From NCBI GenBank assembly GCA_000384615.1, contig ARQU01000002.1, positions 1-64,000 of the forward strand: 64,000 bases of DNA. The letters run 5' to 3'. The position numbers and the translations under genes were made by a program. Shown here one piece after another: positions 24,702 through 64,000 of this stretch (position 1 is its first letter; each line of letters starts with the position of its first letter). The notes below the pieces were generated by a model that saw nothing but the letters and a program-made list of their open reading frames with translations, had not been told where the DNA came from and made no database searches. The stretch comes from an alpha proteobacterium SCGC AAA536-G10 (GTDB lineage Bacteria; Pseudomonadota; Alphaproteobacteria; Puniceispirillales; Marisalimonadaceae).

Positions 24702-24717
24702 TGGCATAAATTTTGCT
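24702..24717 (+). promoter_or_regulatory. Sigma-54 (-24/-12) promoter
   Basis: TGGCATAAATTTTGCT matches TGGCAY-N5-TTGCW with GG and GC 12 bases apart. It is 26 bases upstream of the ATG of the extra hook/rod protein gene. Confidence 0.85.
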
Positions 24718-52472: not shown

Positions 52473-53753
52473 ATGCAAATAAGTTCAAAATTATTTAATC
52501 AACAACAATTAAAACAGTTTTCATCTACAACTGAAGAACTTCAAGACCTTCAAAATAAAATTGCGACAGGTGAAAACATCCTAAAAGCCTCTGACGATCC
52601 TGTTGGATCAGTAGAATTATCAGGTTTGAATGTTGTTAAAAAACAAATTGAACAATATGAAAGAAATGTTAATTCGGCTAATGATAGATTAACGCTTTTG
52701 GATAAGAATTTAGAAAATTTATCAAACATAATGATAAGAGCTCAAGAATTATTAATACAGGCTTCTAGTGATGTTTTAGGAGCTTCAGATCGAGAGTCTA
52801 TAGCACTTGAAATTGACGAGATGAAAGAAGAAATAATGAGTGTTGCCAATGCTCAAGACAGCAATGGAAGTTATTTATTTAGTGGTTATAAAACTAATAC
52901 AATTCCATTTGTTAAAGATCTTGCAGGCAGTATAAATTATAAAGGTGATAGGGGCATAGCTTCTTTATCAATATCTGAGTCACGTGTTATGGAAACAACA
53001 CTTGATGGAGGTACATTGTTTCAAGCGGTTAAGGGACCCACAGGAGAAAATGTATCAGTATTTCAGATGTTAGAAGATATTAGTTATTCTATTAGAACTG
53101 CATCAGGCGGAGTGAATTCTGTTAAAGCAACAGGAGTAGCAGAGCTCACCTTTGAAAATAAAAATCCTGGTACTTGGTCTTTTGATCTTACAGGTAACTT
53201 AGGAACAGCAACAATTACAACTGAAATTACAGGTGAAGATCCTTCGGAATTTGTAAAACAAATAAATTTAAGTTCTACTGGTGTTACTGCAACTATTAAT
53301 GACGATGGGAAGACAATAAAACTAACTGACTCAGTTAATGGGCCTATGGAGATAAAAAACTTATCCGTATACGGGATTGATTCAGCTCAAAAGAACCCAA
53401 CATCATTTTTCCAAGTACAACCAACAGATGGATCAGGAAATAGTATAGGTAGTATGCAAAAGTTATTTGATAATAATCAACTACCTTCAAAACAATTAGA
53501 TAATGTAGCTTCAACACAAGTTCATATATCTAACAATAGGGGGGAAATTGGTGCTCGAACAAATTCTCTAACAAGGCAAACAGAACTGTTAGCCAATAGA
53601 AGATTAGGTGTTGAAAAGGATGTCAGTGATTTAAAAGATGCAGACCTTGCTGCTTTAGTAACAAATTTGCAGAGCATGTTAACATCTATGCAAGCCAGTC
53701 AGCAATCATTTGTTAAAATTTCACAATTAAACTTATTTGATTATTTGAGATAA
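52473..53753 (+). CDS. flgL: FlgL, hook-filament junction protein 3
   Basis: 426 residues, longer than the usual ~300. TTEELQDLQNKIATGENILK then ASDDPVGSVELSGL is the flagellin-like N-terminal helix pair; the C-terminus RLGVEKDVSDLKDADLAALV then LQSMLTSMQASQQSFVKISQ also matches. The middle carries an additional beta region (~210-300, GTWSFDLTGNLGTATITTEI). FlgL joins FlgK to the filament. Last gene of the flgG operon; converges with a hypothetical gene at a seven-base gap. Confidence 0.92.
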   Translation: MQISSKLFNQQQLKQFSSTTEELQDLQNKIATGENILKASDDPVGSVELSGLNVVKKQIEQYERNVNSANDRLTLLDKNLENLSNIMIRAQELLIQASSDVLGASDRESIALEIDEMKEEIMSVANAQDSNGSYLFSGYKTNTIPFVKDLAGSINYKGDRGIASLSISESRVMETTLDGGTLFQAVKGPTGENVSVFQMLEDISYSIRTASGGVNSVKATGVAELTFENKNPGTWSFDLTGNLGTATITTEITGEDPSEFVKQINLSSTGVTATINDDGKTIKLTDSVNGPMEIKNLSVYGIDSAQKNPTSFFQVQPTDGSGNSIGSMQKLFDNNQLPSKQLDNVASTQVHISNNRGEIGARTNSLTRQTELLANRRLGVEKDVSDLKDADLAALVTNLQSMLTSMQASQQSFVKISQLNLFDYLR

Positions 53754-53760
53754 TTATTTA

Positions 53761-54243
53761 TTAGAATAATTCAGGCTCTTCATTAAATACTTCACCAATC
53801 CAGTCAATATCTTCAACATCATTTATTAACCAACCAGGAGTAGCCTTAGGTAAAGCTTCATTTCTGATGCTAAATACAGTAGCTTTAAAAATTTTAAAAC
53901 TTTTATCTGAATTATAGTCTTTTATTTTTTCCGGATCAAATGCAGATGAAAACATCCCAGACAATTTTCTTTCGCTTCCACTTGCCTCAAAGTTAACCCT
54001 ATAATGGATATAATCATCAATGTAAGTTACAGCTTCTTCGCCTGCATTGATATCTGATAAAAATTGAAGGATTTTTTCAGCTAGATCCATAACTTCTTCA
54101 AATTTTACTTCACTATATCTGTCAGATATGGCGTTTGAATATTTTCTGGAAACTGCAGCTATAGAGTTGTTAGTTGATAAAAACTCTTTACTTGTTTGTG
54201 CAGCAAATATACCAAAGATCCATTCAGGACAGAATTTTGACAT
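53761..54243 (-). CDS. Hypothetical protein between flgL and fliS
   Basis: 160 residues from the ATG at 54243, chosen because AGGTGATAAA lies directly before it (a TTG at 54258 is the alternative). Mixed helical protein, acidic C-terminus ending DWIGEVFNEEPELF, two central helices FEEVMDLAEKILQFLSDINA. No signal peptide. It is transcribed after fliS with a 77-base gap. No family recognised; the position suggests a secretion chaperone or regulator of axial proteins. Confidence 0.65.
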   Translation of the reverse strand: MSKFCPEWIFGIFAAQTSKEFLSTNNSIAAVSRKYSNAISDRYSEVKFEEVMDLAEKILQFLSDINAGEEAVTYIDDYIHYRVNFEASGSERKLSGMFSSAFDPEKIKDYNSDKSFKIFKATVFSIRNEALPKATPGWLINDVEDIDWIGEVFNEEPELF

Positions 54244-54320
54244 TTTATCACCTATCAATTTAAAATATCAATTATTTATATATGATAAATAAACTTTTTA
54301 TTAAGTAAATCAATAGTATT

Positions 54321-54704
54321 TTATTTAATTTGTTTCCAACCGTCTAAAATTTCATCAATTGGGGGAATTGCATCGTATACTAATTTTGAATCTCTTTTAG
54401 TGAATCCCTTCATTATTCCATCTTTGCAAAACTCATAAATGTTATATAGATTTTCAGCAATTTCTTTTCCGTCTTCAAAATTTAAACTAGATTGAAGAAT
54501 ATAAATTGCCGTTAATGATTTTGAAAAACTATTTGATTTTATAGATGAAACAACAGGTTCGTGGTCTATAGAATATGCTAATGTCTCCATATTCTTTTTT
54601 AAATCTCTTAAAACTTCCTCTATTATTTTATGGGGATTTAAACTAGATGTTTTAGCAGAAATATCATCGCTAATATATTTCTTTATTGACGCATTATAAT
54701 TCAT
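54321..54704 (-). CDS. fliS: FliS-like flagellin export chaperone
   Basis: 127 residues, helical. LNPHKIIEEVLRDLKKNMET, then the FliS hallmark LNFEDGKEIAENLYNIYEFC and the final DAIPPIDEILDGWKQI match the four-helix FliS fold. FliS prevents early flagellin polymerisation in the cytoplasm. It usually lies next to fliD; here fliD is ~7 kb to the right across a sugar operon. No sigma-54 site was seen in front of it. Confidence 0.85.
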   Translation of the reverse strand: MNYNASIKKYISDDISAKTSSLNPHKIIEEVLRDLKKNMETLAYSIDHEPVVSSIKSNSFSKSLTAIYILQSSLNFEDGKEIAENLYNIYEFCKDGIMKGFTKRDSKLVYDAIPPIDEILDGWKQIK

Positions 54705-54787: not shown

Positions 54788-56500
54788 TTAATGTTTTTCT
54801 ATTTGGTTAATTTCCTCAGAAATTTCTAGATATGCTTTTAAAACATCATTTTCTGAAATAATACCAATCATAGCATTTGTTTTCTTATTTACTATGGGAA
54901 TACTTTCACCAACAAAATTTGATAATTTTTTGATAACAGATAGTAAACTTGTATTTGGGTCAATAATTAGAGGTTTTTTTTCAGAGTAATCAATTAAATT
55001 TAAACCTTTTTTATTTACTAAACTTAACAAACATATCTTACCAATATAAGTATTCTCTTTTGTAACTATGTACCCTTCAGTAGTTTTCTCACTTGTTAAT
55101 AATTTAACAGCCTTATCAATAGATGTTTTTGAGCTAAGTTTAGTGAAGTTTTTATCAACGTAATTTTCTATTAATACCTCATTTAAAAGTATCTGCTCCC
55201 GACCTTTTGTAATGGCAACGCCTCTTGAAATAAGTTGTTTATCAAATAAACTATTCCCAAATATTCTGCTTGTAATGAATGAACAAATTACGATTGGAAA
55301 TGTTGCGGCGATCGCGTATTCGTATGAGCCTGTAAGCTCTAAAACCAGTAAAATTGCAGTTATTGGAGCCCCAATTACAGAGCTAGAAACAGCAGCCATA
55401 CCTGAAACAGCAAGAACAGATAGTAGATCAGGGTTAATAGACGTCATTGGCAAATGAAATATTATAGCTCCTAAGACACCTCCTAAAAAAAGAGCTGGTG
55501 AAAATATGCCTCCAAAAAAACCAAAGCCTATACAAATACTTGTTAACATGAGCTTGCCTATTAAGAGAGCAAAAAGATAGCCAATTATTTGTTCACTTGT
55601 TATTACTGACATTAAAGTCTCTGTTCCTAAACCTAAGACTTCGCTGAAAACCATCCCGCATACCCCACAAGCAAAACCAGCAACTATTGGGGCTTGCCAG
55701 TTTTTTAAATATATTTTTGAAGGAATAGTCCCTAGAAAAAGTATAAGTTTCATAAAAATTACTGCGACAATTGCCGCAAGTGGCCCTATTAAAGCTAAGC
55801 TAGTCAAAATATCAATCATTTCAAAAGGTATTGCGGTCAATAATAGAGGAGGGCTTACAATACCTATTTCAGTGGCAGAGTAATTTGCGACCATGGATGC
55901 AATAGCTAGTGCAGCTACAGCTCTCATAGAAAAATGTCTTAAAACTGTTTCGTGAGCGAATATAATACCTGCAAGGGGTGCGCCAAATCCAGCTGAAATT
56001 GCTGCTGCAACTCCACTCCCAATTATAATGTCATGAGGGATTTTGGGCATAAATGTTTGCCGTCTAATGAAAGAGGATACAGTTGCTCCAAAATGAACTA
56101 AAGGCCCATATATCCCTACTGAAGCACCACCGCTTATAGAAATGAAAGAGGCCAATGTAGATCCGAAACCACCTTTTAGGTCTAAAATGCCCGCTTTATG
56201 ATGAGCTGCATAAATTGTGTCCGCAGGACCAAACCACCTTGGCAATTTTAAATAATACATTAATAATGCTACCAAGATTGAGCTTGGGACACATATGATT
56301 AAGGGTATTAAATTTAGAGATACCTCTCCGATATCAAATGTAAGAATAAAATCATTATTGTTGAAGATAAAATCATATATGTTTTTTGCGCTTATTATGA
56401 ATAACTGAGCAACAAATGATACGATAGATCCAATTAAAGCTGCAATTAATAATAATGACAGACTTTCTTTTGTTGCTTTAAAGCTTATTTTTTTTAACAT
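54788..56500 (-). CDS. ClC family chloride channel/transporter with CBS domains
   Basis: 570 residues. About ten to twelve membrane helices (1-420) are followed by a CBS pair (~440-560, ending IPIVNKKTNAMIGIISENDV). The selectivity segments are GGASVGIYGPLVHFGA and GGIFSPALFLGGVLG. In the first, Tyr131 stands where most ClC antiporters have the gating Glu (GREGP). By family knowledge, loss of this Glu uncouples protons, so channel-like chloride flow is possible. No clear link to the flagellar genes around it. Confidence 0.9.
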   Translation of the reverse strand: MLKKISFKATKESLSLLLIAALIGSIVSFVAQLFIISAKNIYDFIFNNNDFILTFDIGEVSLNLIPLIICVPSSILVALLMYYLKLPRWFGPADTIYAAHHKAGILDLKGGFGSTLASFISISGGASVGIYGPLVHFGATVSSFIRRQTFMPKIPHDIIIGSGVAAAISAGFGAPLAGIIFAHETVLRHFSMRAVAALAIASMVANYSATEIGIVSPPLLLTAIPFEMIDILTSLALIGPLAAIVAVIFMKLILFLGTIPSKIYLKNWQAPIVAGFACGVCGMVFSEVLGLGTETLMSVITSEQIIGYLFALLIGKLMLTSICIGFGFFGGIFSPALFLGGVLGAIIFHLPMTSINPDLLSVLAVSGMAAVSSSVIGAPITAILLVLELTGSYEYAIAATFPIVICSFITSRIFGNSLFDKQLISRGVAITKGREQILLNEVLIENYVDKNFTKLSSKTSIDKAVKLLTSEKTTEGYIVTKENTYIGKICLLSLVNKKGLNLIDYSEKKPLIIDPNTSLLSVIKKLSNFVGESIPIVNKKTNAMIGIISENDVLKAYLEISEEINQIEKH

Positions 56501-56532: not shown

Positions 56533-56548
56533 AGGCATAAAAAATGCA
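56533..56548 (+). promoter_or_regulatory. Weak sigma-54-like element before gmd
   Basis: AGGCATAAAAAATGCA has GG and GC at the correct 12-base distance but deviates at the -24 T and at one T of TTGC. It lies 69 bases upstream of the gmd ATG. It could place the sugar operon under flagellar control. Confidence 0.4.
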
Positions 56549-56617: not shown

Positions 56618-57688
56618 ATGAAGAAAAAAGCACTCATTACGGGAATTACAGGTCAGGATGGGTCCTATTTAGCGGAGTTCTTGATAGAAAAGGGTTATGA
56701 AGTTCATGGCATAAAAAGAAGAACATCCCTTTTTAATACTGGAAGAATTGATCATCTTTTTAAAGACCCCCACGAAAGTGATCAAAATTTAATTTTACAC
56801 CACGGAGATATGACTGACTCATCAAGTCTTATAGGTATAATGGCTAGAGTAAAGCCTGACGAAATTTACAACTTAGCGGCACAAAGTCATGTGGCGGTTT
56901 CTTTTGAAGAACCTGAATATACAGCTAATTCAGATGCTTTTGGTGTTTTAAGAGTGCTAGAAGCAATAAGAATATTAGGTTTTGAAAAAAAATCTAAGTT
57001 TTATCAAAGTTCAACATCAGAACTTTATGGTTTAGTTCAGGAGACTCCTCAAACTGAAACTACACCTTTTCATCCAAGAAGTCCTTATGGAGTAGCTAAA
57101 ATGTATGGGCATTGGATTACAAAAAACTATAGAGAGGCTTACGGTATATTTGCATCCAATGGTATTTTATTTAATCACGAGTCACCAAGACGAGGTGAAA
57201 CATTCGTTACAAGAAAAATCACTCGCGCCTTCGCAAGTATTGCTCTTGGATCAAAACTTCCTCTTTATTTAGGAAATTTGTCAGCAAAACGTGATTGGGG
57301 ACATGCGAAAGACTATGTAGAAGCACAGTGGCTTATTTTACAACACTCTAATCCAGATGATTTTGTAATAGCTACTGGTATTCAATATTCTGTTAGAGAT
57401 TTTGTTAATTCTGTAGCAAGACATATTGGTATGACAATTAAATGGGTTGGAGAAGGCGTAGATGAAATTGGTTTAGTTGATACTATACAAGGACAGTCTG
57501 AGTCCTTAACTGAATGGATTGGCAAACCTGTAGTAAAAGTAGACGAAAGGTATTTCAGACCTGCTGAAGTGGAAACATTACTCGGAGATGCGTCTAAGGC
57601 AAAAAAAATACTTGGATGGCAACCAAAAATTTCCTTTGATCAATTAGTGGCTGAAATGGTTGATAGTGATATTAAAGATCTTAAATGA
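56618..57688 (+). CDS. gmd: GDP-mannose 4,6-dehydratase
   Basis: 356 residues, standard for Gmd. [19 protein letters not shown] is the NADP-binding loop, [28 protein letters not shown] and [12 protein letters not shown] the catalytic Thr/Ser-Tyr-Lys region, then [20 protein letters not shown]. It converts GDP-D-mannose to GDP-4-keto-6-deoxymannose. First gene of a rightward operon with an epimerase-reductase, a ColD-like enzyme and a GT41 transferase. AAAGGAATT before the ATG. Confidence 0.95.
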
Positions 57689-57709
57689 TTCATAACCTTG
57701 ATTAATATA

Positions 57710-58660
57710 ATGAATGATAACAATCACATTAATAAAATTTTGATTACTGGCGGCTCTGGTATGGTCGGTAGAAATTTTTGTGAATATCATAAATCAAAAA
57801 AATACTCTATATTAAATCCAAAGAGAACAGAAATGAATTTGCTCAATTTTCAAGAAGTTGAAAATTATTTATTAAAAAACAAACCCGATATAATTATTCA
57901 TGCTGCTGCAAGAGTAGGGGGGATCCAAGCAAACATAAAAAATCCAGTTTTATTTTTGTCTGATAACGCTGACATGGGAAGAAATTTACTATTATCAGCA
58001 AAAAACCAAAATATAAAAAAAATTATTAATTTGAGTAGTTCTTGTGTTTATCCCAAAAATATGGAAATTCCTTTGGAAGAGGAATTCATTTTATCGGGCC
58101 CGTTAGAACCAACTAACGAAGCATATGCAATTGGTAAAATATTTACACAAAAACTATGTTCTTATATCAATAAAGAATATTCTGATTTTTCCTATAAAAC
58201 TCTTATTCCGTGCAATCTTTTTGGTAAATATGACAACTTTGATCTAGAGACTGGTCACCTGCTGCCCAACATTATTAATAAAATTCACAATGCTAAACTT
58301 AATAAAGAAAATAGAGTCACCATATGGGGTGATGGATCTGTAAAAAGGGAGTTTATGTATGTAAATGATTTAATTGATTGTATATATTATTCAATTGAAA
58401 ACTTTTCTCAGATGCCTGAAATCATGAATGTTGGGGTTGGCAAAGATTATTCAGTTTTAGACTATTACAATATCATTGCTAAATCTTTCGAATGGGATGG
58501 TTCTTTTGAATTTGATTTGACAAAACCAGTTGGGCAAAGACAAAAACTTGTATCTGTAAAAAAACTTAATAATTTTGGATGGGAAAGTAAAATTTCACTA
58601 CAAAATGCAATTGATGAAACTATAAAGTATTATCTAGAAAGTTATAAATATGACCTATAA
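57710..58660 (+). CDS. GDP-colitose or GDP-fucose synthase (ColC/Fcl family)
   Basis: 316 residues from the ATG at 57710 (a TTG four codons earlier is possible). LITGGSGMVGRNF is the NADP loop; SSSCVYPKN gives the catalytic Ser and Cys, NEAYAIGKIF the YxxxK pair, and GHLLPNII the epimerase His. This enzyme class epimerises at C5 and reduces at C4 of a GDP-4-keto-deoxyhexose. Next to colD, GDP-4-keto-3,6-dideoxymannose is the likely substrate (ColC role); GDP-fucose formation (Fcl) is the alternative. Its end overlaps colD by 11 bases. Confidence 0.85.
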   Translation: MNDNNHINKILITGGSGMVGRNFCEYHKSKKYSILNPKRTEMNLLNFQEVENYLLKNKPDIIIHAAARVGGIQANIKNPVLFLSDNADMGRNLLLSAKNQNIKKIINLSSSCVYPKNMEIPLEEEFILSGPLEPTNEAYAIGKIFTQKLCSYINKEYSDFSYKTLIPCNLFGKYDNFDLETGHLLPNIINKIHNAKLNKENRVTIWGDGSVKREFMYVNDLIDCIYYSIENFSQMPEIMNVGVGKDYSVLDYYNIIAKSFEWDGSFEFDLTKPVGQRQKLVSVKKLNNFGWESKISLQNAIDETIKYYLESYKYDL

Positions 58661-59810
58661 ATTTCCTTTATCATATGACAGCTGGGATCATCAAGAAAAA
58701 GAAGCTATATTTGAAGTTGTAAAAGATGGTTTTTTTACAATGGGTAAAAAAGTAAAAAAATTTGAAGAAGAATTTTCTAGTTATGTAGGTAGTAAATATG
58801 CTGTAATGGTTAATTCAGGATCTTCTGCGAATTTGTTAATGGTCGCAAGTCTCTTTTACACAAAAGATAATAAGATAAAATTAAAAAGAGGTGATGAAGT
58901 TATTGTTCCAGCAGTGTCTTGGAGCACGTCATATTATCCTTTATACCAATATGGATTAAAAATTAAATTTGTAGATATTGACTTAGAAACTTTAAACTAT
59001 GATTTGGAAAAGTTAAAAACAGCTGTTTCCGATAAAACAAAAGTTATTTTAGCAGTCAATCTTTTGGGAAATCCAAATAATTTCAAAGAAATTAAAAAAA
59101 TAATTAATAAAAAAGATATAGTTTTAATTGAAGATAACTGTGAGTCTTTAGGGGCTGAGTTTAAAAATAAAAAAACAGGCACAATAGGGCTTTTGGGTAC
59201 ATTTAGTTTCTTTTTCTCACATCATATTTCTACAATGGAGGGGGGTATGATAGTGACAGATAACAAGGAATTATACCATATTCTCTTGAGTTTAAGAGCT
59301 CATGGATGGACTAGAAATTTACCTGAAGATAATTTGGTAGCAAAAAAATCTAAAAATAATTTTGATGAATCATTTAGATTTGTTCTTCCTGGTTACAATT
59401 TAAGACCTTTAGAAATGTCAGGTGCCATTGGTTCTATTCAAATTCAAAAATTTCCTAATTTTCTTGTTCAAAGAAAAATAAATGCAGAGATTTTTTTAGA
59501 TAAAATGAAAAAATATGATGATATCATTACTCAGAAAGAGATAGGTTCAAGTAGTTGGTTTGGTTTTAGTTTAGTAATCAAACCTGATTCTAATAGATTA
59601 AAAGAAGATTTGGTAAAATTATTGAACAAAACTGGATTTGAATGTCGTCCAATTGTTGCAGGAAATTTTGCTAGAAATGAAGTTGTTAAATATTTTAATA
59701 GTGAAAATGTAGACGATTTAAAAAACGCTGATTTAATAGATAAAAATGGCCTTTTTATTGGAAATCACCATATTAACATGAAAGAGGCTTTAACCTCTTT
59801 GAGTTTATAA
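58650..59810 (+). CDS. colD: GDP-4-keto-6-deoxy-D-mannose 3-dehydratase (ColD)
   Basis: 386 residues of the DegT/aspartate-aminotransferase fold. The PLP-anchoring Lys of aminotransferases is replaced by His: FFFSHHISTMEGGM, His191/His192. This is the mark of ColD and CDP-sugar E1 dehydratases. VIVPAVSWSTSYYPLYQYGL, VNLLGNPNNF, EDNCESLGAEF and RAHGWTRNLP agree with my memory of E. coli ColD (about 388 residues). It removes the C3 hydroxyl using PMP and glutamate, on the way to GDP-L-colitose. An aminotransferase such as perosamine synthase is excluded by the His. Confidence 0.9.
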   Translation: MTYKFPLSYDSWDHQEKEAIFEVVKDGFFTMGKKVKKFEEEFSSYVGSKYAVMVNSGSSANLLMVASLFYTKDNKIKLKRGDEVIVPAVSWSTSYYPLYQYGLKIKFVDIDLETLNYDLEKLKTAVSDKTKVILAVNLLGNPNNFKEIKKIINKKDIVLIEDNCESLGAEFKNKKTGTIGLLGTFSFFFSHHISTMEGGMIVTDNKELYHILLSLRAHGWTRNLPEDNLVAKKSKNNFDESFRFVLPGYNLRPLEMSGAIGSIQIQKFPNFLVQRKINAEIFLDKMKKYDDIITQKEIGSSSWFGFSLVIKPDSNRLKEDLVKLLNKTGFECRPIVAGNFARNEVVKYFNSENVDDLKNADLIDKNGLFIGNHHINMKEALTSLSL

Positions 59811-59839
59811 AGTCATTTACAAAAAATGAGAATTACTTC

Positions 59840-61924
59840 ATGAATTTAAATATAGAAAATGAATTTAAAGCTGGCTTAATTTTTCATAAAGAAGGAAATA
59901 TTACAGAAGCTGAAACCAAATATAAAAAAGTTCTTGCTATTGAGGATAATCATTTTGACAGTCTTCATCTTTTAGGAGTTGTGAAAAGTCAAAAAGGAGA
60001 TTACAAAAAAGCAATCTTTTATATAAAAAAGGCTCTTGAATTAAACAAAGCTAACCCCATGGTTTATAACAATCTAGCTGTTGTTTACATGGAAATGAAC
60101 AACTATAAAGAAGCGTTATATTATTGTAACATGTCATTGTCATTTGATAATAATAATTTAGAAGCAATATATAATAAGGGTAGAATACTTAGTGAGGATG
60201 AAGATTACATTGAGGCAGAAATTTTATTTAAGAAATTAATAAAATTAGACCCGAACTATTATAAAGCCTACTTGAGTTTAGGTATTTTATCATTCACGCA
60301 AGGTAAAACTGAATTATCCATTAATTATTACAATAAAGTAATTCAATTAAAACCTGACTTTTTTGATGCATATTATAATTTAGGTAATATTTATCTTGAT
60401 CTAGAAAAAAATGATTTAGCTGAGCTTAACTTCATAAAGGCACTAAAATGTGACCCTCAAAACTCCCAAGTATATAATAACTTGGGTAATGTGTATAAAA
60501 ATATTAATAAAATTGAAGAAGCTAAAGTTTGCTTTGAAAACTCATTGAAATATAATAGTTCTGATACAAAATCCTTTCACAATTTAATTGATCTTCATTT
60601 ACAAATATCTGACTGGTCTCAAATTCAAAATTATATAAATTCATATGATAGCATTGAAAAATTTAAAGAATTAGGTGTTCCTGTTAATATTCATGTTATA
60701 TTTGATAGACCTGATTACCAAAAATATGTTAACGAAACATTTCTTAGTTATTCTGGTAAGTTGGAAATAAATAACTTTAATTATAAAAGAAAAATAAATT
60801 CGAAAATTAAGGTAGCATATTTTTCTGCAGACTATTCAGATGATAACCCTGTTGCATATCTTATTTCTGATTTAATTAAATTTCATAATAGAGATAAATT
60901 TGAAATTTACGGCTGTTCCTTAAAAGGAACTAAAGAAAAAGATAGTACACGAAAGTATTACGAAAAATATTTTGATCATTTTTTAAATATTCAAAATTTA
61001 ACTAATAAAGAAATAGAAGAGTTATGTATCTTACAAAAATTTGACATTGTAATAGATCTTAATGGTTACACTAAATATGCTCGTCCAGATCTTTTTTCAA
61101 AAAAACTAGCACCAATCCAAGTTAACTTTTTAGGTTACCCAGGTACATTAGGATCTAAAATGTATGACTATATTATTGCGGATAAAACAGTAATTCCGCC
61201 CCAGTATACAAAGTACTATACTGAAAGTATTGCATATCTTCCTTGTTCGTATTTTGTAAACCCAAAACAACGTAGAAGTAGTACTAAGAAGCTCAGTAGA
61301 CAAGAGCTTGGTTTACCATTAGATGGTGTTGTTTTTTCTTGTTTTAATCAGAACTATAAAATTTTACCCAACATTTACGAAGTCTGGATGAGAATACTTA
61401 AAAGAGTTGGAGGAAGTGTACTACTTTTATCCCACACAAATCAATTAGCTAAAAAGAATTTAAAACTTGAAGCAGAAAAAAAAAATGTGAACCCTGACAG
61501 AATTGTTTTTGGTGAATACTTCAGAGATATTGGCGATCACTTAGAGAGGTACAAAGCAACGGATATGTTTTTAGACACCATGCCTTATAATGCTCATACA
61601 ACCGCCTCTGATGCAATTTGGGCTGGCATACCTTTGATTACTTGTATAGGAAAATCTTTTGCGTCCAGAGTTTCTTCGAGTATTTTAAAATCAGTTGGTC
61701 TAGAAGAATTAATAACACAGTCTCTGAAAGAATATGAAGAGAAGGCTGTTCAACTTGCTTTAAATCCCCAAAAATTAATAGATTTAAAATTACAATTAAC
61801 CAACCAACGTTCTAAGGTAACTTTTTTCAACAGTGAACTTTATACCAAAAATTTAGAAAAAGCATATGAAGAAATGCATAGAAATTTTTATTTGGGTAAC
61901 CCTAGTAAAACTTTTGAAATTTGA
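59840..61924 (+). CDS. TPR-GT41 O-glycosyltransferase (SPINDLY/OGT-like)
   Basis: 694 residues. Residues ~1-265 form about seven TPR repeats (YNNLAVVYMEMNNYKEALYY, YNNLGNVYKNINKIEEAKVC). Residues ~320-680 form the GT41 catalytic domain: LNGYTKYARPDLF, APIQVNFLGYPGTLGS, CFNQNYKILPNIYEVWMRIL, and PYNAHTTASDAIWAGIPLIT. Family members add GlcNAc (OGT) or fucose (SPINDLY) to Ser/Thr in the cytoplasm. The catalytic-His segment reads SADYSDDNPVAYL, with Asn where His is expected. It lies 29 bases after colD and just before fliD, so modification of flagellar axial proteins from a GDP-deoxysugar is likely. Confidence 0.9.
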   Translation: MNLNIENEFKAGLIFHKEGNITEAETKYKKVLAIEDNHFDSLHLLGVVKSQKGDYKKAIFYIKKALELNKANPMVYNNLAVVYMEMNNYKEALYYCNMSLSFDNNNLEAIYNKGRILSEDEDYIEAEILFKKLIKLDPNYYKAYLSLGILSFTQGKTELSINYYNKVIQLKPDFFDAYYNLGNIYLDLEKNDLAELNFIKALKCDPQNSQVYNNLGNVYKNINKIEEAKVCFENSLKYNSSDTKSFHNLIDLHLQISDWSQIQNYINSYDSIEKFKELGVPVNIHVIFDRPDYQKYVNETFLSYSGKLEINNFNYKRKINSKIKVAYFSADYSDDNPVAYLISDLIKFHNRDKFEIYGCSLKGTKEKDSTRKYYEKYFDHFLNIQNLTNKEIEELCILQKFDIVIDLNGYTKYARPDLFSKKLAPIQVNFLGYPGTLGSKMYDYIIADKTVIPPQYTKYYTESIAYLPCSYFVNPKQRRSSTKKLSRQELGLPLDGVVFSCFNQNYKILPNIYEVWMRILKRVGGSVLLLSHTNQLAKKNLKLEAEKKNVNPDRIVFGEYFRDIGDHLERYKATDMFLDTMPYNAHTTASDAIWAGIPLITCIGKSFASRVSSSILKSVGLEELITQSLKEYEEKAVQLALNPQKLIDLKLQLTNQRSKVTFFNSELYTKNLEKAYEEMHRNFYLGNPSKTFEI

Positions 61925-61939
61925 TCTTTGATAAATCTT

Positions 61940-61955
61940 CGGCATAAATTTTGCA
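61940..61955 (+). promoter_or_regulatory. Sigma-54-like promoter for fliD
   Basis: CGGCATAAATTTTGCA fits the -24/-12 consensus except C for the first T. Its core GGCATAAATTTTGC is identical to the promoter at 24702. It lies 51 bases upstream of the fliD GTG. Confidence 0.75.
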
Positions 61956-62006: not shown

Positions 62007-64000
62007 GTGGCAGTTGATTATTTAAGTGCGATAAATAACTCTGGAAGTGGGTTAAACATTACTCAAATTGTAGATAGTTTAGTAGATGCTGAAAAATCAC
62101 CTCAAGAAAATATTATCCAAAATAAAATAGATGAAAATAATACCTCTATCTCCTCCATAGGTGAAATTAAAAGTGCTTTGTCTAAATTGTCTACGTCTCT
62201 TACCTCTTTAACTGGTAACACTTCCTTAAAGACATCCTCTACAGGATCTTCTTTATCAGCGATAATAACCAATCCCTCAGATGCAAAAACAATAAACTCA
62301 ACTATTAGTGTAACTACTCTTGCCAAAGGACAAACATTAGCATTTTCTGGATATTCATCAAATACGACAGTAGTTGGTTCAGGTTCTCTTAGCTTAGAAA
62401 GAGGTGATTGGTCTTCAGGTAGCTTTGTTGCTAGTTCAACAGTATCGTCCACCTCTGTAACTGTTACATCAACCGATACACTTGAATCTTTAAAAGATAA
62501 AATTAATGCTCTTGATTATGGGATTGTTGCAAGTGTAATCGGAGCTGGCGACGATACTTATACTCTTGTTATAAAATCTGGAGAAGGTAAAAAAAATGCC
62601 TTAAGAGTAACTGCTACAGAAAGTCCTTCAGGATCAGGTTTATCTTCAATAGATAATACGTCAACAAATGGGTCTAAACAAAAAGTTGCTGGTACAGACG
62701 CATCTTTAAGTGTTGATGGTATTTCAATAACTAGATCTACAAACAATATCACTGATTTATTTGAAGGTTATCAAGTGAATTTGTCAAATGTAACAAATTC
62801 TACTGGAAGTGATATACCAGTAAATTTAACTAGTGCAGTTGACGAAGCTGCAGCAGAAACAAATCTTAAATCTTTTATAAATGCTATCAATGATGCTCGT
62901 TCGATTATAAACGAAAAAACTTTCAGAGGTTCCGCTTCTAAAGAAGCTGGAGATTTATCTAGTGATCCTGTTATAAAAAATATTAAAAAAGAAATTGAAA
63001 ATCTTACCAGTACAGCATTATCAGGTTTTAGCAGTAATGGGGTATATATTTCAAATTTAGGAGTTAGAACTGAAAGAGATGGTAAACTATCCTTAAATAC
63101 AACAATTTTAAAAAATGAATTGAAAAACAACCCTACTTCTTTAGATGCAATTTTTAATTCTATGTATTCTTCATCTTCAAGTTTGTTAACCGTTAGTGGA
63201 GGATCCAATAAAGCACCAGTAGCAGGATCATATACATTTGTTATGACCGCTTTTGTATCTGGAAATGTTACAGGTTTAAAAAGTAATGATACATCTCCAA
63301 ATGTTACTGCCTCTAATAATACAATTCAATTAACTGTTGATGGTACTACCTCTGGAACTATTACAGTTCCAGCATCTCACTACAGCTCCGAAGATGCATT
63401 AGCGACCGCTATTCAAACTGCAGTCAATGCTGATACAACATTATCCAATGCTGGTAAATCTGTAACAATAACACATTCAGATGGTAGTTATAAAATAAGT
63501 TCTTCATCAACTGGATCGTCGACAAGCATGGTAGTAAACAATATTGGTTCAAATTTAAATGGTTTCTTAAAATTGACTGGAACAGCAGATGACAATGGTA
63601 TTTCAACTTCGCAATCTGGAACTGCTTCAACAGCATTAACTATTAACGGCGCGTCATCTGTCCCATCTGATACTGATGGATTAGTCGATAATGAAACTTT
63701 AGGGTCTTCAGGTGATTTCTCCATTGATGGAGCGTTACAATCGCAAGCAGCAAGTGGTATTAATTCATTTATTACTATATCAAGCGCAAGTAATAATGCA
63801 TCAGTAACCTTTACGGTTCATGGTACTAATATTGATGGAACTTCTATAAGTGAAACAATTACAGGCGTAAATAATAATACAGTTACATCTACTAATTTAT
63901 TTGCAACAGTAACAAGGGTTAGTTCTGATGCAGGTGCAAATGCTGTTAATGTAGGTAATTCACCTGCGATAGTAAAAACTACTGGAACAAGAGCCTCAAT
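62007..64000 (+). CDS. fliD: FliD, filament cap protein (HAP2), N-terminal part, probably enlarged
   Basis: Frame open from GTG at 62007 to the right edge (664 codons visible). The start AVDYLSAINNSGSGLNITQI then VDSLVDAEKSPQENIIQNKI is the FliD N-terminal coiled-coil motif. NALRVTATESPSGSGLSSID and LDAIFNSM (the latter normally near the C-terminal third) are seen by residue ~390, after which a beta-rich insert begins. At least one copy of the module repeated in FlgK lies at the end. Usual FliD has 400-650 residues, so this protein is probably longer. GTG is preferred because the upstream ATG at 62002 hits a stop. Confidence 0.9.
   Translation, partial: MAVDYLSAINNSGSGLNITQIVDSLVDAEKSPQENIIQNKIDENNTSISSIGEIKSALSKLSTSLTSLTGNTSLKTSSTGSSLSAIITNPSDAKTINSTISVTTLAKGQTLAFSGYSSNTTVVGSGSLSLERGDWSSGSFVASSTVSSTSVTVTSTDTLESLKDKINALDYGIVASVIGAGDDTYTLVIKSGEGKKNALRVTATESPSGSGLSSIDNTSTNGSKQKVAGTDASLSVDGISITRSTNNITDLFEGYQVNLSNVTNSTGSDIPVNLTSAVDEAAAETNLKSFINAINDARSIINEKTFRGSASKEAGDLSSDPVIKNIKKEIENLTSTALSGFSSNGVYISNLGVRTERDGKLSLNTTILKNELKNNPTSLDAIFNSMYSSSSSLLTVSGGSNKAPVAGSYTFVMTAFVSGNVTGLKSNDTSPNVTASNNTIQLTVDGTTSGTITVPASHYSSEDALATAIQTAVNADTTLSNAGKSVTITHSDGSYKISSSSTGSSTSMVVNNIGSNLNGFLKLTGTADDNGISTSQSGTASTALTINGASSVPSDTDGLVDNETLGSSGDFSIDGALQSQAASGINSFITISSASNNASVTFTVHGTNIDGTSISETITGVNNNTVTSTNLFATVTRVSSDAGANAVNVGNSPAIVKTTGTRAS
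63675..64000 (+). repeat. FlgK-type beta module inside FliD
   Basis: From DGLVDNET through GSSGDFSIDGAL, NNASVTFTVHGTNIDGTSIS, ETITGVNNNTV and NVGNSPA to GTRASI the sequence follows FlgK residues encoded at 50159-50490 (DGLVDNET, GSSGNFTIDGAL, NNASVTFTITGTNVDGTAQT, ETITGVNANTV, NVGTSPA, GTRVSI) with hardly a gap. The copy continues past the window edge. Confidence 0.9.

Follow-up and report, generated by a model that had tools for sequence, protein, structure and literature searches.

We analysed the first 64,000 nucleotides of contig C2 (C2:1-64000; hereafter the window) from the 2.16-Mb, 90% complete assembly of a SAR116 alphaproteobacterium (genome G000), and here describe an operon within a flagellar gene island that combines a predicted GDP-colitose pathway with a glycosyltransferase of family GT41. 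The operon comprises gmd, colC, colD and GT41a; gmd and colC are 9 bp apart, colC and colD overlap by 11 bp (spacer -11 bp), colD and GT41a are separated by 29 bp, and fliD follows after a further 82 bp. On the other side lie flgL, a fliS-family gene and a ClC channel gene (Table 1). The initial annotation of this DNA had described these genes as a tight operon flanked by fliS/flgL and fliD, and all four lie where it had placed them. Past the window end, C2 continues with GT41b and genes for a 916-aa flagellin, GT41c, a 738-aa flagellin, a FliS-like protein and a 666-aa flagellin, the flagellin and FliS names here being taken from a look at the sequence and from position; GT41c follows the gene for the 738-aa flagellin on the same strand after 28 bp. 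A fourth GT41 gene of this genome is on contig C24 beside urease-like genes.

The sugar genes suggest a specific nucleotide sugar. The gmd gene is the sole match at E<=1e-60 in its genome. ColD has His191 where aminotransferases have the lysine that binds pyridoxal phosphate (PLP), and the motif SHHISTMEGG is present in all four aligned ColD proteins (4/4). Because of this histidine, GDP-perosamine, a 4-amino sugar, was ruled out as the product. ColC scores 293.6 bits to the GDP-L-fucose synthase model NF047922, below its cut-off of 500. In a 33-row tree built of Fcl and ColD-linked rows, and thus with ColC of E. coli O55/O111 outside the comparison, ColC falls into an 11-row ColD-linked clade (SAR116, Rhodobacterales, Chelatococcus and Cryobacterium; support 100/99), and the Fcl rows, 19 in number and with Fcl of E. 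coli K-12 among them, form a separate group (94/94). Both groups exclude three rows on long branches, one of which is the ColD-linked short-chain dehydrogenase/reductase (SDR) of G015 (31%). Because ColD is strongly supported and has its catalytic histidine, and because ColC belongs to a ColD-linked clade apart from the GDP-fucose synthases, GDP-colitose is the likely product of Gmd, ColC and ColD, as had been proposed initially.

Searching 136 genomes of the order at E<=1e-90, we found ColD in six, namely G000, G018, G022, G077, G015 and G128, with 79-80% identity in G018, G022 and G077; G015, G018 and G022 belong to the same genus as the window organism. In G000, G018 and G022, the trio of sugar genes lies inside the flagellar island, between the genes for ClC and FliD and together with FlgL, FliS and a SPINDLY (SPY)-type GT41 (see below), so that sugar genes and transferases are kept within the flagellar locus in all three genomes. 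In G022, colD adjoins fliD and the SPY-type enzyme. Because the order gmd-ColC-ColD is repeated in the islands of G018 and G022, and outside such islands in G077 and G128, the arrangement is more than chance. In G077, the trio lies between central-metabolism-like genes and a cut-off TPR gene, the start of which looks similar by eye to G081's SPY-type GT41. In G015 and G128, ColD is found in clusters that, with names from a look at the sequence, resemble polysaccharide-synthesis clusters. Among plasmids, 14 gave a ColD match and nine were opened; six of these nine, from five genera (Parasedimentitalea, Chelatococcus, Phaeobacter, Paracoccus twice, and Sulfitobacter), carry gmd-ColC-ColD with the ColC/ColD overlap, and the three without the trio are from Azospirillum. 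Matches to ColD at 44-49% identity in other alphaproteobacteria were rejected as the same system, as no close gmd was present among the loci read; these loci hold GHMP-kinase-like and TPP-enzyme-like genes and sometimes an Fcl-like SDR (34-35%), again named from a look at the sequence. As a caution, plasmids of Azospirillum lipoferum (L140 8098-16694) and A. ramasamyi (L141) carry a ColD-like gene (48%) near GT41 genes, in clusters without annotated flagellar genes. A distant and looser case is alphaproteobacterium AG-337-E20 (L060 1831-14243), where gmd and a 53% ColD, with no ColC in sight, are accompanied by GT11 and GT2 instead of GT41 and have FliS-like, ClC-like, flagellin and FliD_C genes as neighbours.

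The island is variable within the genus, as expected for a glycosylation locus: G031 has a gene for a cytidylyltransferase alongside a fused double GT41, and G023 (by look also G002) has a small methyltransferase gene. G031 lacks the colitose genes, and the cytidylyltransferase (PF02348; L044, G031:C27, 10839-11648) in its flagellar island suggests that sugar genes are swapped between species. In each of G000, G018 and G022, flgL is separated from the trio by the ClC channel gene and the unmatched open reading frame (ORF) that occupies 53761-54258 in the window.

A sigma-54-like -24/-12 element precedes both gmd and fliD (Table 1). The element AGGCATAAAA..ATGCA lies 69-71 bp upstream of gmd in G000, G018 and G022, and none was found before gmd in G077, where the trio lies elsewhere; GGCATAAA..TGCA is present in 10/10 aligned upstream regions (gmd 3/3, fliD 7/7). 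A similar site (C2:74873-74888) precedes the flagellin gene upstream of GT41c, and another (C2:67430-67445) falls on the mechanical start of GT41b, an overlap that makes it probable that the true start of GT41b is further in. Zero-mismatch sites are located at or before four window genes starting at 24713, 30875 (minus strand), 35657 and 43115. The pattern occurs 80 times in the window against 56 expected (1/100 shuffles reached 80), 21 times in L021 against 18 expected (reached in 56/200 shuffles) and 29 times in L024 against 18.7 expected (reached in 1/200 shuffles). Because such counts are weak by themselves and near chance, we place the weight on the position and conservation of the elements. 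On these grounds, the colitose operon appears to be driven together with flagellar genes from a sigma-54-type promoter. Wzy_C, the O-antigen ligase/polymerase domain and the sole sign of an O-antigen that was searched (Wzx and ABC exporters were not), gave no match in G000 and matches in 9/14 control genomes. Within 90% completeness, one gmd, one Fcl/ColC and no Wzy_C match in this genome speak against use of the sugar in an O-antigen. Together with the shared island in three genomes and the conserved sigma-54-like element, this supports the flagellar rather than O-antigen role that had been suggested for the operon. In G018, a gene for a putative 2OG-Fe(II) oxygenase (PF13759; L024, G018:C14, 8977-9642) with a sigma-54-like element stands between GT41a and fliD; it is absent at that place in G000 and G022, and its product could modify an axial protein.

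The axial proteins encoded by the island are very long (FlgK-like protein, 2132 aa; FliD, 870 aa; flagellins, 666-916 aa) and consist of 19-31% Ser+Thr, compared to 12.9% over 42 other window ORFs, which are mechanical, some perhaps not being genes, and individually range over 9.3-23.2%. FliD (30.8%), the FlgK-like protein (23.2%) and FlgL (19.0%) are possible acceptors. Glycosylation in the cytoplasm before export has been described for other flagellins (PMC4065374, PMC7591256).

In Arabidopsis SPY, the choice of GDP-fucose involves K689, which contacts guanine and corresponds to L866 in human OGT; A731, which corresponds to R904 of OGT, a contact of uridine; and Y744, which corresponds to C917 (PMC10027727). 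Tyr744 is described as touching O2 and O3 of fucose. GT41a has Ser531, Arg570 and Tyr583 at these three positions and so agrees with SPY at one of three. Held against OGT, it has the arginine of R904 together with Tyr rather than a small residue at C917, a mixed pattern, and it has Asn at the position of OGT His558 and SPY H495. The GT41 tree places GT41a on the side of the Arg904-type enzymes; over the whole protein its best match is human OGT, with SPY at 216 bits, in scores that include the TPRs. The claim of the initial annotation that the operon's GT41 is a SPINDLY-like GDP-sugar transferase is thus not borne out by Ser531 in place of Lys689, the retained Arg570 and the position in the tree. 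By contrast, GT41b has Lys, Met and Phe, and GT41c Lys, Leu and Phe; both have Lys at K689 and no Arg at A731/R904, but Phe instead of Tyr at Y744. In a search of the PDB with the catalytic region of GT41b, SPY scores highest (276 bits), compared to 202.5 bits for the Thermobaculum enzyme (5djs) and <=143.5 bits for human OGT chains, and in the printed alignment GT41b keeps SPY D491, H495, S496, V497, N662, K665, K689, H728, T748 and E752. Structure predictions from 3-sequence alignments gave poor catalytic domains (mean pLDDT 69.3 for GT41a and 58.8 for GT41b of G018).

Among 46 GT41 domains, gathered through matches to GT41a and GT41b and thus sampling islands with a GT41 rather than those without, none combines Lys at K689 with Arg at R904 (19 Lys, 22 Arg, 5 neither). 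As the groups of 19 and 22 are defined by Lys and Arg themselves, the independent tests are the placement of the branch and the other residues: the 19 Lys domains lie on one side of a single branch (99/95; 200/200 bootstrap trees), the position of SPY S496 is Ser in 17/19 Lys-type vs 0/22 Arg-type domains, and that of E752 is Glu in 18/19 vs 5/22. Tree and tally leave out G483, G407, G312, G191, L241 and L244, which are outside the order and several of which have Lys at K689; the duplicate island copies L053 and L054 and the cut-off TPR gene of G077 are likewise excluded, and three Azospirillum rows are included. Across the order, SPY-type GT41 goes with gmd: gmd is present in 12/14 genomes with residues read as SPY-type vs 26/122 others (Fisher p 3e-6, kinship not corrected). 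Here, G090-G092 (Arg, Ser and Tyr) and G001, G021, G061 and G062 (Arg at R904) were counted as not SPY-type. In the three flagellar colitose islands, a SPY-type enzyme is present in 3/3 and GT41a in 2/3. The islands of G000, G018, G020 and G032 have at least one GT41 of either type each, as if two sugars were added. In G022, an Arg904-type GT41, 35% identical to GT41a and not grouping with it, lies further along the contig, at its end.

Two proteins of relatives contain two SPY-type GT41 domains each (L034, G022:C8, 2787-7481, 1564 aa; L044, G031:C27, 6449-10816, 1455 aa); the paired domains are nearly identical (branch lengths 0 to 0.007), pointing to a recent duplication or an assembly artefact. 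The GT41s of G090-G092 (L257-L259), with Arg/Ser/Tyr at the three donor positions, lie beside UDP-glucose dehydrogenase-like and epimerase/decarboxylase-like genes (names from a look at the sequence) and are perhaps UDP-xylose users.

Based on these observations, we suggest a model in which the locus is a flagellar glycosylation island with division of labor among its GT41 enzymes. In this model, Gmd would convert GDP-mannose to GDP-4-keto-6-deoxymannose, ColD would remove the C3 hydroxyl, and the ColC-type SDR would epimerise C5 and reduce C4 to give GDP-L-colitose, a product predicted from the enzyme families and the ColD histidine seen in the sequences. The operon would be expressed alongside flagellar genes from the sigma-54-type promoter indicated by the conserved element. 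The SPY-type enzymes GT41b and GT41c would then take GDP-colitose as donor and place its 3,6-dideoxyhexose on Ser/Thr of the Ser/Thr-rich axial proteins in the cytoplasm, before type III export. GT41a, with its OGT-like site, might add a second or priming sugar from a UDP donor or act on FliD; this is the weakest step of the model. In our reading, GT41b and GT41c use the GDP-sugar and GT41a is a second enzyme with another donor; this reading draws on the donor-site residues, the tree, the co-occurrence with gmd and the presence of the SPY-type in all three islands. On balance, we consider this arrangement of pathway and enzymes somewhat better than evenly supported. The more specific proposal, that it amounts to bacterial protein O-colitosylation by a SPINDLY-type GT41, a variant form of a bacterial O-fucosylation system akin to that of plant SPINDLY, is put forward tentatively.

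Several observations weigh against this model. ManC (TIGR01479) has no match over cut-off in G000, nor in G018 (59% complete) and G077 (56%); the NTP_transferase matches of G000 are two, a GalU-like 290-aa ORF and a 450-aa open frame. Because ManC is present in G022, an assembly gap could account for its absence from G000. The scope of the ColC comparison also counts here, as does the fact that the trios found beyond SAR116 are in non-flagellar surroundings. The residue code was calibrated on plant and animal enzymes, and prokaryotic GT41s have been described as a mixed intermediate group (PMC10027727). Two genomes with a SPY-type GT41 lack gmd, G031 (66% complete) and G081 (57%). Moreover, GT41b and GT41c have Phe at Y744, a position at which, in SPY, Y744A abolished activity in one study and significantly lowered it in the other and Y744C left it hardly detectable (PMC10027727, PMC9715652); Y744F is not mentioned in the relevant sections of these two papers. 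Colitose is a 3,6-dideoxyhexose and has no O3, so that Phe is not unreasonable, and a Tyr-to-Phe change would fit a sugar without O3. Phe is present in 5/6 domains of the three genomes with ColD islands and Tyr in 9/9 domains of genomes with gmd but without ColD. However, GT41b of G018 keeps Tyr, and of the two SPY-type genomes without a gmd or ColD match, G031 has Phe in both domains and G081 has Tyr. The link between Phe and ColD is therefore suggestive only.

The position of GT41a, 29 bp after colD and kept there in 2/3 flagellar islands, favors GT41a as the user of the sugar, and GT41a could itself transfer colitose from GDP-colitose to flagellar proteins if its use of GDP had evolved without the lysine of SPINDLY. 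Besides lying in the same operon, GT41a is retained in G018 with 51% identity, Tyr583 at the Y744 position would leave little room for GlcNAc, following PMC9715652, and the pair has an active-site change of its own, the Asn at OGT His558/SPY H495, which is found in 2/22 Arg904-type domains. Yet the pair has Ser/Ala at K689 and Arg at A731/R904, the uridine-type pattern; in G022, colD sits beside fliD and a SPY-type enzyme, whereas the Arg904-type GT41 there is the distant one described above; and the trio of G077 adjoins the cut-off gene that resembles the start of a SPY-type GT41. We thus regard colitose transfer by GT41a as rather unlikely.

The two further alternatives concern the fate and the identity of the sugar, and to us both appear quite improbable. 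If the trio fed colitose (or fucose) to lipopolysaccharide (LPS) or another polysaccharide, its flagellar placement would be incidental. Colitose is known as an LPS sugar (PMC8987622), the ColD genes of G015 and G128 lie in polysaccharide-like clusters, and the trio of Chelatococcus has genes for glycosyltransferases and ABC transporters around it. Against this stand the lack of a Wzy_C match, the finding that GT41s are the only glycosyltransferases recognised between flgL and the third flagellin, and the sigma-54-like element, which precedes gmd in the three flagellar islands but was not found in G077. Alternatively, the donor could be GDP-L-fucose or a mixture, ColD having a minor role and the proteins being O-fucosylated as by plant SPINDLY. 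ColC is an Fcl-family enzyme, and nine relatives with a SPY-type GT41 have gmd and Fcl, no ColD, and Tyr at Y744. Weighing against this possibility are the conservation of ColD in G018, G022 and G077 and the placement of ColC in the ColD-linked clade, no second Fcl being found at E<=1e-30 in the genome.

Table 1. Genes and promoter-like elements of the predicted flagellar colitose island. Positions are those of the window unless contig C2 is named.
Feature	Position	Strand	Basis or remark
gmd, GDP-mannose 4,6-dehydratase (GDP-4-keto-6-deoxymannose)	56618..57688	+	TIGR01472, 560.7 bits, cut-off 415
colC, Fcl-family SDR of ColD-linked clade, predicted GDP-colitose synthase (C5 epimerase / C4 reductase)	57698..58660	+	TTG start
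colD, GDP-4-keto-6-deoxymannose 3-dehydratase	58650..59810	+	best PDB match 2gms (WbdK/ColD of E. coli), 514 bits, E 1.6e-153
GT41a, TPR + GT41, uridine-type (Arg904-type) nucleotide site	59840..61924	+	PF13844, 252 bits
GT41b	C2:64780-67434 (past window end)	-	between FliD and flagellin genes
GT41c	C2:70354-72606 (past window end)	-	beside flagellins
Sigma-54-like -24/-12 element before gmd, AGGCATAAAAAATGCA	56533..56548	+	2 mismatches to pattern
Sigma-54-like element before fliD	61940..61955	+	1 mismatch
fliD, 870 aa in all	62007..64000 (continues past window end)	+	PF02465, PF07195 (on in-window part)
Hook-type protein, 1694 aa	37186-42270		name from look at sequence
FlgK-like giant hook-associated protein, 2132 aa	46055..52453	+	named from sequence and place
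FlgL	52473..53753	+	TIGR02550, 221.4 bits, cut-off 127.2
ORF adjoining flgL	53761-54258	-	no Pfam or NCBIfam match
FliS-family export chaperone	54321..54704	-	PF02561, 52.3 bits, cut-off 26.7; under TIGR00208 cut-off
ClC chloride channel	54788-56500	-	between FliS-family gene and gmd

If the model is correct, a 3,6-dideoxyhexose would join the sugars known on proteins, and SPINDLY-type GDP-sugar transferases would be flagellar enzymes in the ocean clade SAR116. These bacterial relatives would also lend themselves to residue-by-residue tests of donor choice in GT41 enzymes, GDP vs UDP and fucose vs colitose. The locus would also carry a warning, namely that the transferase in a sugar-gene operon need not be the user of that sugar. 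In the titles and abstract openings of the open-licence literature, neither colitose on a protein nor a SPINDLY-type flagellar GDP-sugar enzyme was described. Thus, colitose on protein would be new, while GT41 in flagellin islands is already known in Enterobacteriaceae (PMC4875605).

The proposed system shares parts with several known ones. The GDP-colitose pathway of Gmd, ColD and ColC serves LPS in some E. coli, Y. pseudotuberculosis and others (PMC8987622). Gmd and ColD are the same here by sequence, including the ColD histidine; however, the operon lies in a flagellar island, and ColC is of an alphaproteobacterial, ColD-linked and Fcl-like clade, placed in a comparison that E. coli ColC stands outside. 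In enterobacteria, variable flagellin glycosylation islands also carry GT41 enzymes, with the SPINDLY COG3914 domain, and GlcNAc derivatives were predicted for them with a wider specificity allowed; their listed sugar genes include no GDP-colitose set (PMC4875605). The protein O-fucosyltransferase SPINDLY of Arabidopsis is the best PDB match of GT41b, which keeps the SPY residues listed above. The differences are Met (GT41b) or Leu (GT41c) at A731, Phe at Y744 and Leu at I592 in what is predicted to be a bacterial, flagellar enzyme, and GT41a does not share the residue code. Finally, FlmG of Caulobacter is a modular cytoplasmic O-glycosyltransferase that modifies several flagellins (PMC7591256). 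FlmG uses pseudaminic acid, and GT41 is not named in the main text of that paper; nevertheless, in both alphaproteobacteria a modular enzyme acts, or is predicted here to act, on flagellar proteins in the cytoplasm.

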